This document shows, in pieces, positions 6,538 to 33,569 of a DNA stretch of 40,772 nt. Position 1 is the first letter of the stretch; the number at the start of each line of letters is the position of its first letter. The position numbers were made by a program, and so were the translations under genes. Under the pieces are notes generated by a model. That model was not told where the DNA came from, did not search any database, and saw nothing but the letters and a program-made list of their open reading frames with translations. This DNA is from Kofleriaceae bacterium. GTDB taxonomy: Bacteria; Myxococcota_A; Polyangia; Haliangiales; Haliangiaceae. The stretch spans positions 1-40,772 of the forward strand of contig JANTGM010000049.1 of the NCBI GenBank assembly GCA_024762925.1, in the 5' to 3' direction.

Positions 6538-6553
6538 TGGCACGTCGCTTGCT
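6538..6553 (+). promoter_or_regulatory. Consensus sigma-54 (-24/-12) promoter
   Basis: TGGCACG-TCGC-TTGCT matches the sigma-54 consensus TGGCACG-N4-TTGCW at every defined base. With the C at 6552 as -12, transcription would start near 6564, only about two bases before the lipoprotein ATG at 6566. Confidence 0.55.
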
Positions 6554-13278: not shown

Positions 13279-14763
13279 ATGGACCAAGGCAGCATTGATA
13301 AAGAACTGCACGACGCGCAAAATTTTGAAGCGCTCGACAAGAAGATCATGCAAATCGCCCAAGCGAGTACGGGCGCACGCAACGGTGCGCTCTTTCTTTG
13401 GGATCCAGAGGCCGACGGCCTCACCATTGCTCATCATGTCGTAAAGGGCCTCACCGTCACTCTTCCACACACGGTGATCCGCCGAGACAAGCCCGGAATC
13501 GCGCTTTGGGTCTACGATCACAACCAGGCGTACCTCTGCCCCGACACTCGCAACGATCCCAACTACACACGCTATCTCCAAGATGTGCGGTCCATTGCAG
13601 CGGTACCCATTTGCTATCAGCGAAGGCCCATCGGCGTTATCAGCGTGTCATCGAGCCGTCCCGACGCGTTCCACAAGGGGGACTTGGAGTCGCTGGCCGA
13701 AATCGCGAGCTCCGCCGCCAAGTTTGTGCGAAGGGCGCAACTTGAGCGAGCCAGCATTGAGCGAACTGGCCGCCCGTATTTGATCAAGGGACTCTCTAAG
13801 CAGTGGCTTGAGGTAGAACGGCGCATTGAGATGGCCTCACCCACGAACGCGCCCGTTCTAATTCACGGAGAGAGTGGCACCGGAAAAGATTTGGTCGCCT
13901 CAGCGATTCATTTCAACAGTGCGCGCTCAGAAAAACCCTTAGTCACGGTAAACTGCGCTGCCATTCCTGAGAACATGCTTGAGAGCATTCTCTTTGGACA
14001 CGTTAAAGGGGCGTTTACTGGTGCGAGCTTCAACAAGATCGGTGAATTTACCAAGGCCGATGGTGGAACGCTCTTTCTCGACGAAGTTGGCGAGTTGCCG
14101 CTGCTGTTACAAGCCAAGGTCTTGCGAGCTGTTGAACAAGGAGAAGTGCAAGCACTCGGTAGCAACTCGGCTTCTGAGCATGTTGATGTGCGGCTTGTGT
14201 GCGCAACAAATCGCGACCTCGAACGCATGGCTGCCGAAGGCACCTTTCGCGCCGACCTCTACTATCGTCTGAGCGTGATGAGCATGGAACTGCCGCCGCT
14301 TCGCTCGTACAAGGAAGGCAACCTTGAAGTTCTAGCCAACGTCTTTCTGCAGCAGGCCGCGCAGAAACACAACATCCCGCCCCCCAAGATCTCGACCAGC
14401 GCTTTGAGCGTATTGGAGAACTATCAGTATCCAGGCAACGTCCGTGAGCTAAAGAACGCGATCGAACATGCGGTAATCATGGCTGGTGATGAAATCGAGG
14501 CCAAGGACTTACCAAATCGTTTTGTCATGCACGCGGACTCACTTGCTGAGAGTGGCAATGCCGCGCCAAACCAAAATCTGCAGGAGCTGCGCGAACAGTG
14601 GCTAGCCCCTTTGGAGAAGCGCTATCTCAGCAATCTTCTAGAGGCCTGTGAGGGCAATGTGCGAAAGGCTGCGGCCATCGCGGGCATTAATCACGTCACA
14701 CTCTACCGATTGCTAAAAAAGCGCGGCTTGAGCGTTGGACGCCAAGTGCGCGATATTGACTAG
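13279..14763 (+). CDS. Sigma-54-dependent transcriptional activator with GAF domain
   Basis: The product has 494 residues from the ATG at 13279; upstream in-frame codons look untranslated. Residues ~10-165 form a GAF sensor domain (ARNGALFLWDPEADGLTIAH through IGVISVSSSRPDAF). Residues ~178-405 are an AAA+ sigma-54 interaction domain: Walker A GESGTGKD (about 197-204), the sigma-contact loop GAFTGA (about 244-249), Walker B GGTLFLDEVGEL and arginine-finger region FRADLYYRL. The C-terminus (about 445-490) is a Fis-type HTH (GNVRKAAAIAGINHVTLYRLLKKRG). It should bind an enhancer and open sigma-54 promoters on a GAF-sensed signal. Two consensus sigma-54 promoters occur in this window (6538 and 33077), but no link to this protein is shown. 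Confidence 0.93.
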   Translation: MDQGSIDKELHDAQNFEALDKKIMQIAQASTGARNGALFLWDPEADGLTIAHHVVKGLTVTLPHTVIRRDKPGIALWVYDHNQAYLCPDTRNDPNYTRYLQDVRSIAAVPICYQRRPIGVISVSSSRPDAFHKGDLESLAEIASSAAKFVRRAQLERASIERTGRPYLIKGLSKQWLEVERRIEMASPTNAPVLIHGESGTGKDLVASAIHFNSARSEKPLVTVNCAAIPENMLESILFGHVKGAFTGASFNKIGEFTKADGGTLFLDEVGELPLLLQAKVLRAVEQGEVQALGSNSASEHVDVRLVCATNRDLERMAAEGTFRADLYYRLSVMSMELPPLRSYKEGNLEVLANVFLQQAAQKHNIPPPKISTSALSVLENYQYPGNVRELKNAIEHAVIMAGDEIEAKDLPNRFVMHADSLAESGNAAPNQNLQELREQWLAPLEKRYLSNLLEACEGNVRKAAAIAGINHVTLYRLLKKRGLSVGRQVRDID

Positions 14764-16560: not shown

Positions 16561-16754
16561 GGTTCGTGTCCTATTGAGGTGTTGGCCATGACTAGAGCAA
16601 GGGGTGTGCCACGGTCCTACATGTCGCATAGCACTGAAATCATTAGAGTAGCGACCCTTGGATCTGTTTACCTCTTGATACTTCTGTTGCACAGAATAAA
16701 CATTAGTATGTCGAGCGCACCAATCTGCCATCAAAATCCCGGATGAACGGGTGT

Positions 16755-28001: not shown

Positions 28002-31026
<3,025 letters not shown>

Positions 31027-31121: not shown

Positions 31122-32954
31122 ATGGCGGGACCCCACAGCCGAGCCGAGCCCAACTTCAACTCGAAGTCCTTCCTTGGCGTCTTTCGCTACAGCGGCCAGG
31201 CCGTGAAGCTCGTTTGGGAAACAAGCCCAAGGCTCACGATTGCTCTCGTTGTCTTGAGCCTCATCGCAGGTCTTCTACCAGCGGCAATCGCCTACATTGG
31301 AAAGTGGCTTGTCGATGCGGTGGTACTCAGTGCGCAGACCAACGATCCTGTGCACCGAGCCGAGGCCATTCGCTATGTGATCATGGAAGCCGGGCTTGTT
31401 GCGCTGCTTGCCGCCACCCAGCGCGGGCTCTCGGTGTGCCAATCGCTACTCCGGGCGCTCCTTGGCAACCGAGTGAATGTGATGATCTTGGACAAGGCGC
31501 TGAGCCTCGATCTCACTCTTTTCGAAGACTCAGAGTTCTACGACAAGATGACTCGTGCGCGAAGGCAGGCCTCTTCCCGCCCGCTCAGTCTCGTGATGCG
31601 AACCTTTGGACTCATCCAAAATGCCATATCGCTCGCAACCTATGGCGCGTTGCTTATCAGCTTCTCTCCCATCGCTGTAGCGATTCTCGCCTTTGCGGCG
31701 TTGCCGACATTTATCGTCGAGACCAAGTTCTCCGGTGAAGCGTTTCGACTCTTTCGATGGCGCACTCCTGAGGCACGAGAGCAGATGTACTTGGAAACCG
31801 TGATTGCTCGCGAGGACTACGCAAAGGAGGTCAAGCTCTTTGGACTTGGCCGCACGTTGCTTGACCGATATCAGAGTATTTTTGACAAGCTCTACAAAGA
31901 AGATCGCAGCCTCACGATGCGACGAGGCGTATGGGGATATCTCTTAGGATTACTAAGCACAGCGGCGTTCTACGGCAGCTACGCTTGGATCGTAATATCG
32001 GCGATCGATGGCGACATCTCAATCGGCGAAATGACGATGTTCGTGATGGTCTTTAAACAAGGGCAATCGGCGATGGCTGCTGCACTGAGTGCGATCGGCG
32101 GCATGTATGAAGACAACCTCTACCTCAGCAATCTCTATGAGTACTTGGAGCAAGAAGTGCCAGTTTCCGCGGGAGGTGCCATCGTTGGCCCAGAGCCCGG
32201 TGATGGGCTCCGTTTTATCGACGTTAGCTTCGCGTACCCAGGCAGCGAAACGAACGCGGTCGAGCACATCAGCTTCCATCTGCACCCGGGTACCAAGCTG
32301 GCCCTTGTGGGAGAAAATGGCTCCGGCAAAACAACGATCATAAAACTTCTTACGCGACTGTATCGGCCGAGTGAGGGCACCATCACCCTAGATGGACTTG
32401 ACCTGCAACAGTGGGATGACCAGACCCTTCGCGACCGACTTGGTGTCATCTTTCAGGACTTTGTGCGCTACCAGTTCAAGGTAGGTGAGAACATTGGCGT
32501 CGGTGATGATGCGGCATTTGCTAACGAGGAGGCATGGCGCGAAGCGGCAAAGGAAGGGATGGCTGCGCCATTCATTGAGGAGCTTCCAGATCAGTACCAG
32601 ACCCAACTAGGTCGGTGGTTTAAGGGCGGACGGGAGTTGAGTCTTGGTCAGTGGCAAAAGATCGCTCTCTCAAGAGCCTTCATTCGCAAGACCGCCGATG
32701 TGGTTGTGCTCGATGAGCCCACTGCCTCCATGGATGCAGCAGCAGAGGCACAGATTTTCGAGCACTTTCGGGAAATCACCCAGGATCAGATGGCAATCGT
32801 TATAAGTCACCGATTTTCGACTGTCCGGATGGCGGACGAGATCATCGTGCTCGACAAGGGGCGGATTATGGAGCATGGCAGTCACACGGAACTCATCGCC
32901 GCAAAAGGTGACTATGCCCGGCTCTTTGAGATTCAGGCCAAGGGCTATCAGTAG
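31122..32954 (+). CDS. ABC transporter, fused permease and ATPase
   Basis: The product has 610 residues. The N-terminal half (about residues 25-330) contains about six transmembrane helices (LTIALVVLSLIAGLLPAAIA, then VALLAATQRG, and so on) in type IV exporter style. The nucleotide-binding domain has Walker A GENGSGKTT (about 397), Q-loop VIFQDFVRY, signature LSLGQWQK (about 505), Walker B VVVLDEPTASMD (about 527) and H-loop VISHRFST. Such half-transporters dimerise to export lipids, peptides or drugs. The substrate cannot be told. No neighbouring biosynthetic cluster is visible. Confidence 0.92.
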   Translation: MAGPHSRAEPNFNSKSFLGVFRYSGQAVKLVWETSPRLTIALVVLSLIAGLLPAAIAYIGKWLVDAVVLSAQTNDPVHRAEAIRYVIMEAGLVALLAATQRGLSVCQSLLRALLGNRVNVMILDKALSLDLTLFEDSEFYDKMTRARRQASSRPLSLVMRTFGLIQNAISLATYGALLISFSPIAVAILAFAALPTFIVETKFSGEAFRLFRWRTPEAREQMYLETVIAREDYAKEVKLFGLGRTLLDRYQSIFDKLYKEDRSLTMRRGVWGYLLGLLSTAAFYGSYAWIVISAIDGDISIGEMTMFVMVFKQGQSAMAAALSAIGGMYEDNLYLSNLYEYLEQEVPVSAGGAIVGPEPGDGLRFIDVSFAYPGSETNAVEHISFHLHPGTKLALVGENGSGKTTIIKLLTRLYRPSEGTITLDGLDLQQWDDQTLRDRLGVIFQDFVRYQFKVGENIGVGDDAAFANEEAWREAAKEGMAAPFIEELPDQYQTQLGRWFKGGRELSLGQWQKIALSRAFIRKTADVVVLDEPTASMDAAAEAQIFEHFREITQDQMAIVISHRFSTVRMADEIIVLDKGRIMEHGSHTELIAAKGDYARLFEIQAKGYQ

Positions 32955-33076
32955 CTGGCGACTCCTGTGGCCAGGGGCATGGTTGTCACCACCTAGGTGG
33001 CTACTAGAGTTGACAGCAGCATTCTTGTGCACACCTAGCCAATGTAATTCTAGAGGTATACGTGAGTAGGTATGTG

Positions 33077-33092
33077 TGGCACGCAGGTTGCT
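33077..33092 (+). promoter_or_regulatory. Consensus sigma-54 (-24/-12) promoter
   Basis: TGGCACG-CAGG-TTGCT matches TGGCACG-N4-TTGCW at every defined base. With C33091 as -12, the start would be about 33103 (an A). It lies in a gene-free region, upstream of a strong terminator. Confidence 0.75.
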
Positions 33093-33102
33093 TTACCTTG
33101 TG

Positions 33103-33295
33103 ACCACGAAAGCAACTCGGTCCCCCAGACTGTAATCATCCCCCTAGCACCAAGGAAACCCTCCCCTAGTTTTACCTCGCTCGCCAACACGCTGCTTGCA
33201 CACCATCCCCCCTAGTGCTTGAGCGGCATGTGGGCTGAGCGCCCCCTCTCAAAGCCGGCTGACCCTTCCCCCCAAGGTCAGCCGGCTATTTTTTT
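33103..33295 (+). ncRNA. Putative sigma-54-dependent small RNA with C-rich motifs
   Basis: The ~193-base interval runs from the predicted start to the terminator at 33253-33295. It has no convincing coding frame. It holds six C-runs: TCCCCCAG, TCCCCCTAG, CTCCCCTAG, TCCCCCCTAG, GCGCCCCCTC and, in the terminator loop, TTCCCCCCAAG. Three of them end in CCCTAG. Unpaired C-rich stretches of this kind can pair with GGAGG ribosome sites, as in several known bacterial small RNAs. In Myxococcus, the sRNA Pxr is reported to be sigma-54 dependent, a precedent in this phylum; I cannot say whether the sequences are related. The rest of 32955-33569 shows no gene; a CCTGCG/CGCAGG stem lies near 33326. Confidence 0.6.
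33253..33295 (+). terminator. Strong intrinsic terminator
   Basis: AGCCGGCTGACC pairs with GGTCAGCCGGCT across a C-rich loop, followed by ATTTTTTTG. It is about 300 bases after the ABC transporter stop, which makes it a better fit to the small RNA than to that gene. Confidence 0.9.
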
Positions 33296-33569
33296 GAGGG
33301 TTACCAGGCTAAATCTTGAAGGAGCCCTGCGGTGTTTCGCAGGAGCGGTTTCCCGAGAGCCTTCATTTTCGTTGTTCTTGGGTCGGCCAGGTATTTCTGG
33401 AGGCTTGGTTCTCGATTGCATCGGAAATCTGAGGCTCATCAACTGTCGCGGCTTCTAATTCCAGTAGGTTAGAAGTGGCATGGTCACGGCCCCACCCTTG
33501 CTTTTGCCGTAGGTCGCTCGCGACTCCCTTGTTGTGGGCACTCTGACTTTCACGCAAGGAACCCATTCA

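Follow-up and report, generated by a model that had tools for sequence, protein, structure and literature searches.

Hairpin loops with runs of at least six C characterize the 6C RNA of Actinobacteria. In Xanthomonas, the C-rich loops of sX13 repress mRNAs that carry G-rich motifs near the start codon, and this repression is independent of Hfq (PMC3771888). Small RNAs of the sX13 type, with C-rich loops, are treated here as a functional kind, not as a sequence family.

The myxobacterial RNA Pxr controls the switch from growth to multicellular (fruiting-body) development in Myxococcus, and it is not known which targets it acts on directly or how (PMC11928866). Its own trait is a block of development when nutrients are plentiful. 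The pxr gene adjoins the response regulator gene pxrR/nla19 (PMC5568312). Pxr with a mutated SL1 loop still accumulates but is without function, and myxobacteria have no known hfq homologue (PMC5684412). M. xanthus pxr was located by a search with a Pxr primer sequence from the same study (PMC5684412) and is confirmed by Rfam family RF01812 at 129 bits (L074). Upstream of it lies the sigma-54 box CTGGCACGGCGACTGCT, and its promoter has the form CTGGCACG-N4-CTGCT. SL1 is composed of GCUGAAGGCGG-UUCCCCCCCA-CCCCUUCAGC, with UUCCCCCCCA as its C7 loop, and the original Phoenix mutation presumably lies within this run of seven C.

The locus described here belongs to a window of 40,772 nucleotides, the whole stretch of DNA that was analysed, from a Kofleriaceae bacterium. 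A preliminary description had proposed a sigma-54-dependent small RNA in it. The proposal is supported by a diverged, structure-conserved copy with the same perfect promoter in a genome of the same genus (G001) and by the many loci of similar build across the class.

The predicted RNA gene and its likeness to known RNAs

In a promoter scan of the window, TGGCACGCAGGTTGCT matches the sigma-54 consensus TGGCACRNNNNTTGCW without mismatch, as had been claimed for the -24/-12 promoter (Table 1). Such perfect sites number 12 in the 6.8-Mb genome, compared with 7 in the backward control. All 12 end in T despite the W of the consensus, which permits another base, and most of those inspected closely precede a start codon, in many cases that of a predicted lipoprotein. 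The uniform final T suggests that many of the 12 are real promoters and, together with the position of most inspected sites ahead of start codons, that this promoter type is in use in the genome. Three of the 12 occur on the 40.8-kb contig, at 6538-6553 (+), 16596-16611 (-) and 33077-33092 (+). Those at 6538 and 16596 are just upstream of predicted lipoprotein starts, and the lipoprotein after the 16596 site has YegP-like repeats.

The predicted RNA has a folding energy of -64.4 kcal/mol, compared with -44.1 +/- 3.8 kcal/mol for dinucleotide shuffles, none of 200 of which is as good. Six C-runs, three of them ending in CCCTAG, had been reported, and six runs of at least four C are indeed present (33122-33126, 33140-33144, 33163-33166, 33207-33212, 33242-33246 and 33268-33273), with TAG directly after the second, third and fourth. 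The terminator, likewise described as strong, has 12 perfect pairs (33253-33264/33276-33287) followed by T7 at 33289-33295; it is one of three strong terminators in the window and the only one with a C-loop. The region had also been said to hold no reading frame, and no frame of at least 20 aa both begins in the RNA and stops before the terminator. A 47-aa frame (33072-33215) begins upstream of the +1 and so falls outside the RNA, a 79-aa TTG frame (33219-33458) reads through the terminator, and the ORF scan of the RNA region found no other same-strand frames of at least 20 aa. Judged from these sequence features, 33103-33296 is very probably a real small regulatory RNA gene, and we infer that it is transcribed in dependence on sigma-54.

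Table 1. Features of the RNA locus and its neighbourhood, in window coordinates
Feature	Position	Strand	Remarks
Methyltransferase gene, neighbour common to the window RNA and the G001 copy	30037..31026	-	Pfam Methyltransf_31; DNA match G001:C115
ABC transporter gene, upstream of the RNA	31122..32954	+	Pfam ABC_tran; no match in G001
Sigma-54 -24/-12 promoter TGGCACGCAGGTTGCT	33077..33092	+	Perfect consensus; predicted +1 at 33103
Predicted small RNA, about 190-194 nt	33103..33296	+	Fold z -5.3; bounded by promoter and terminator; no internal ORF
Small 5' hairpin round the first C-run (33122-33126)	33118..33132	+	MFE only; not conserved in G001
Mostly unpaired stretch with two CCCCTAG motifs	33140..33169	+	Gap in G001 alignment; specific to the source genome
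Long hairpin with C6 loop (33207-33212)	33179..33240	+	Kept in G001; one U-G pair is exchanged for G-U
Terminator: 12-bp stem, loop CTTCCCCCCAA, T7	33253..33295	+	Three compensatory base-pair changes relative to G001

Pxr and the window RNA have the same type of promoter and are alike in their stem-loop architecture, in their terminator and in that no Hfq is known (PMC5684412, PMC5568312). The C7 loop of Pxr nearly equals the terminator loop of the window RNA (CUUCCCCCCAA), the loop at L186 (GGUUCCCCCCCCACC) and that at L193 (ACCUUCCCCCCCAGG). In the 108-nt Pxr, however, the C-loop sits in SL1 near the 5' end and the terminator loop is not C-rich, whereas the terminator loop of the window RNA is C-rich and its C-loops, of C5-C6, are placed elsewhere. 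The gene neighbours differ as well, with pxr adjoining pxrK/pxrR (nla19) and the window RNA adjoining methyltransferase and ABC transporter genes. The Rfam Pxr model RF01812 (cut-off 80 bits) gave no match to the window at gathering or at E 10, with L074 as positive control at 129 bits. The likeness to Pxr, initially mentioned with reserve, is stronger than claimed in the sigma-54 box and the C-loop hairpin plan; the suggested Rfam search for Pxr gave no match. Because the RF01812 test failed, the window RNA is not called Pxr, and the best reading, by analogy, is that it would work like Pxr without membership in the Pxr family.

The sX13 family (RF02232) has several apical C4-C5 loops, and the window RNA is likewise C-looped: as a structured sRNA with C-runs of at least four in apical loops, here the C6 loops of a hairpin and of the terminator, it has the sX13-type trait. 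The two RNAs nevertheless have no sequence relation and come from different bacterial groups, and the sX13 model scores 17.2 bits against the window, below its cut-off of 50. The description of sX13 (PMC3771888) mentions no sigma-54 promoter, whereas the window RNA has one. The 6C model (RF01066), also from a different bacterial group, reaches 23.4 bits (E 0.83) against a cut-off of 47.

The diverged copy in a genome of the same genus

BLASTn of the RNA against 55 relatives returned no matches. The diverged copy in G001, which BLASTn missed, was located by synteny through the methyltransferase neighbourhood; it lies directly upstream of the methyltransferase gene on the opposite strand. Its promoter is the perfect sigma-54 box TGGCACACTCATTGCT. 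Its hairpin, CACAC-UCCCCCCAUUU-GUG within GCUCGCC...GGCAGAGC, has a C6 loop, and its terminator, AGCCGGTCAACC-ATCCCCCAA-GGTTGACCGGCT followed by a T-run, has a C5 loop, so that the sX13-type C-loops of the window RNA are kept as C-loops. The two RNAs have 30 base pairs in common, and at four pairs, three in the terminator stem, both partners differ between them. The copy is shorter than the window RNA, without the stretch that bears the first C-runs and the CCCTAG motifs. Because the shorter RNA keeps only its two hairpins with their C-loops, along with the promoter, these are, by this sequence comparison, the conserved elements. The expected conservation of C-runs in relatives holds for the C-run loops but not for the 5' part or the CCCTAG endings, and CCCTAG can no longer stand as the key feature of the RNA.

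Beyond the source genome, a homologue of this RNA was found in G001 alone: searches of 26 further family genomes gave none at E <0.05. The G002 contig stops short of the RNA site, and where loci of other family members were inspected through synteny with the ABC transporter gene, they hold no such RNA.

CCCCTAG was also considered as a family motif and rejected, as it is absent in G001 and no triple occurs in 29 other family genomes. Paired CCCCTAG in the source genome is confined to the RNA locus and a repeat array on contig C28. The latter cluster was discarded as an RNA, since it looks like 22-bp iterons beside a Rep-like gene. Six direct repeats, each of about 22 bp and with CCCCTAG, make up this array (L031 4497-4615; G000:C28:16496-16614), which adjoins the Rep-like gene at L031 4657-5457 (-). 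They probably serve as iterons at the origin of a plasmid or second replicon.

C-loop hairpins behind sigma-54 boxes in the class and phylum

A covariance model built from the window and G001 RNAs (R1) was run on 318 genomes of the class and matched G211 (E 3.6e-6) and G035 (E 5e-5). In G211, a sigma-54-like box is followed by six consecutive hairpins with C5-C8 loops, most of them with T-rich tails and without a sequence tandem repeat (L167 6834-7270). This array is a striking tandem row of C-loop terminators, several of which have their own T-run. Weak matches to the model in G250, G007 and G002 lack a C-loop and were dismissed. G018 has a C6-loop terminator without a sigma-54 box.

Since G211 combines a sigma-54-like box with C-loop hairpins, the 318 class genomes were searched for this architecture, defined as a C6 run at a distance of 21-81 bases downstream of a sigma-54 box. 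The pattern occurs in 153 of the 318, compared with about 78 genomes with control matches (the control being counted by hand), and many matches to a sigma-54 box plus C-run are ordinary protein genes. Forty loci, picked as non-coding-looking, were inspected. Most of those in f12, f16, f24, f25, f26, f21 and f23 carry a single stem or a pair of stems (9-22 bp) with a C6-C9 loop straight after the box, and a T-run often follows the last stem. A C7 search of 379 genomes of the phylum supplied a second set of 30 loci, independent and unselected, which added cases in f14, f27 and f32. Hairpins with C6-C9 loops behind a sigma-54 box are found in at least 11 families (f1, f12, f14, f16, f21, f23, f24, f25, f26, f27 and f32), a count from which f10 (G111, G114, G116) and several f1 matches were left out as protein-gene leaders.

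In the C7 set, 16 of 35 C-runs lie in stems of at least 9 bp, whereas shuffling of the flanks predicts 2.2 (binomial p 8e-11); when other C-runs of these loci serve as the comparison, Fisher's test gives p 0.14 (C7) and 0.012 (C6 runs). Loop enrichment is weak in the C6 set (5 of 31 vs 1.9 expected), which happened to list mostly protein genes. Of the strong terminators in the window plus 20 loci (up to 14 kb each), all 10 with a C-loop and none of the 15 others lie within 400 bp of a sigma-54 box; these loci were chosen because they have a sigma-54 box with a C-run, but that choice does not account for the absence of C-loops in the 15. Rfam release 15 holds no family for any of the 19 other loci tested.

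Members of this wider group share architecture and loops but not alignable sequence, so they may or may not be of common descent; convergence on sigma-54 with C-loops would be almost as interesting as common descent. The results agree with the placement of the source genome in the phylum of Myxococcus, as given in the preliminary description, although Myxococcaceae may be outside the phylum-wide sample, since no Pxr-like sequence is among the listed matches of that scan. On balance, we lean towards the view that sigma-54-driven RNAs of one to six C-loop hairpins form a widespread, unrecognised regulatory class in this bacterial class and phylum. Pxr would be its sole studied example and the loop (roughly UUC6-9A) its conserved unit, with stems, hairpin number and neighbours evolving freely. 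If Pxr is one of many such RNAs, comparison across families marks the C-loop as the functional element. The predicted G-rich targets would then make the mechanism directly testable, sigma-54 signalling would be tied to RNA-level control in bacteria without a known Hfq, and looking for a C-loop hairpin behind a sigma-54 box would be a simple way to find sRNAs where none are annotated.

Outside the class, five f38 genomes (G323, G505, G509, G542 and G583) have a conserved sigma-54 box and, after it, a stretch resembling CACGAAC...AGTTCCCCCC, which makes this another candidate C-run RNA.

Mode of action and competing explanations

Because the C-loops recur on stems that vary among these RNAs, the functional unit is likely to be the loop, and the C-loops of the window RNA are quite probably its functional part. 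Taken as a whole, the best explanation, and a reasonably probable one, is a sigma-54-driven, trans-acting, Pxr-like C-loop sRNA that represses several mRNAs. Sigma-54 RNA polymerase would transcribe the RNA from the 33077 promoter, and its own terminator would end the transcript. The working parts would be the C5-C6 runs in the hairpin loops (33207, and 33268 in the terminator) together with nearby single-stranded stretches, and the RNA would be one of a broad, class-wide group that is sigma-54-driven, C-rich in its loops and built like Myxococcus Pxr. Most likely without Hfq, base pairing of the loops with G-rich motifs in or close to ribosome-binding sites would repress translation of several mRNAs. 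We infer these targets and this mechanism by analogy, and action through C-loop pairing with G-rich ribosome-binding sites is about an even call.

The loops might instead form a decoy or scaffold for a C-rich single-strand-binding protein (Rho, cold-shock or KH-type), as CsrB/RsmZ do for CsrA, with several identical loops titrating the protein. Near-identical loops on varying stems, up to six per transcript and without a sequence tandem repeat (L167/G211), do have the look of a protein array. Although both modes fit, pairing is favoured over binding of a C-specific protein because members with a single C-loop exist (many in f12 and f25), because no cognate protein gene was seen recurring next to the RNAs across families, and because myxobacteria have no known hfq and sX13 is Hfq-independent. 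C-loop RNAs tested elsewhere use base pairing (PMC3771888), and a decoy role is unlikely here.

Two further readings would deprive the locus of a role in trans. As the RNA lies between the ABC transporter and DUF2330 genes on the same strand, it might be a cis element, either a DUF2330 leader or the 3' end of the ABC transporter transcript. The terminator, however, lies 275 bp before the DUF2330 gene, the G001 copy adjoins neither gene, and no such RNA lies upstream of the G001 DUF2330 gene. Because the G001 copy is without the ABC transporter neighbour, the RNA is not simply the end of that transcript; on this comparison of neighbourhoods it is no cis part of either gene, and a cis element is very improbable. 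Given a genome rich in G+C, a chance promoter match next to an ordinary terminator whose loop happens to be C-rich could explain the lack of BLASTn relatives, and shuffled windows do contain a mean of 1.15 near-matches to the sigma-54 promoter. Against this coincidence stand the perfect promoter and compensatory changes conserved in G001, the lack of C-loops in the 15 other terminators, and the recurrence of the sigma-54 and C-loop combination in many families, which make it extremely unlikely.

The trigger of the preferred trans-acting RNA would be a signal that activates the enhancer-binding protein of its promoter. An activator gene had been assigned to 13279-14763, and Pfam finds GAF, Sigma54_activat and HTH_8 domains in its product. 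Unlike PxrR, a receiver-domain sigma-54 response regulator whose gene adjoins pxr, this GAF-type activator is encoded 18 kb from the RNA; no activator or kinase gene adjoins the RNA, and as a regulator of the 33077 promoter it is a candidate only. In f16, the gene of a Sigma54_activ/AAA-lid/HTH_8 protein adjoins the C-loop RNA in five genomes (L157-L160, L163). No GAFTGA motif is visible by eye in the AAA domain of this activator-family protein, which may therefore be a non-standard activator. In f12, a receiver-kinase hybrid gene ends beside the C-loop RNA (L152, L153). Pairs of neighbouring C-loop RNA paralogues, both members behind a sigma-54 box of their own, occur at L158 6081 (-) and 7284 (+) in G157 and at L185 in G202.
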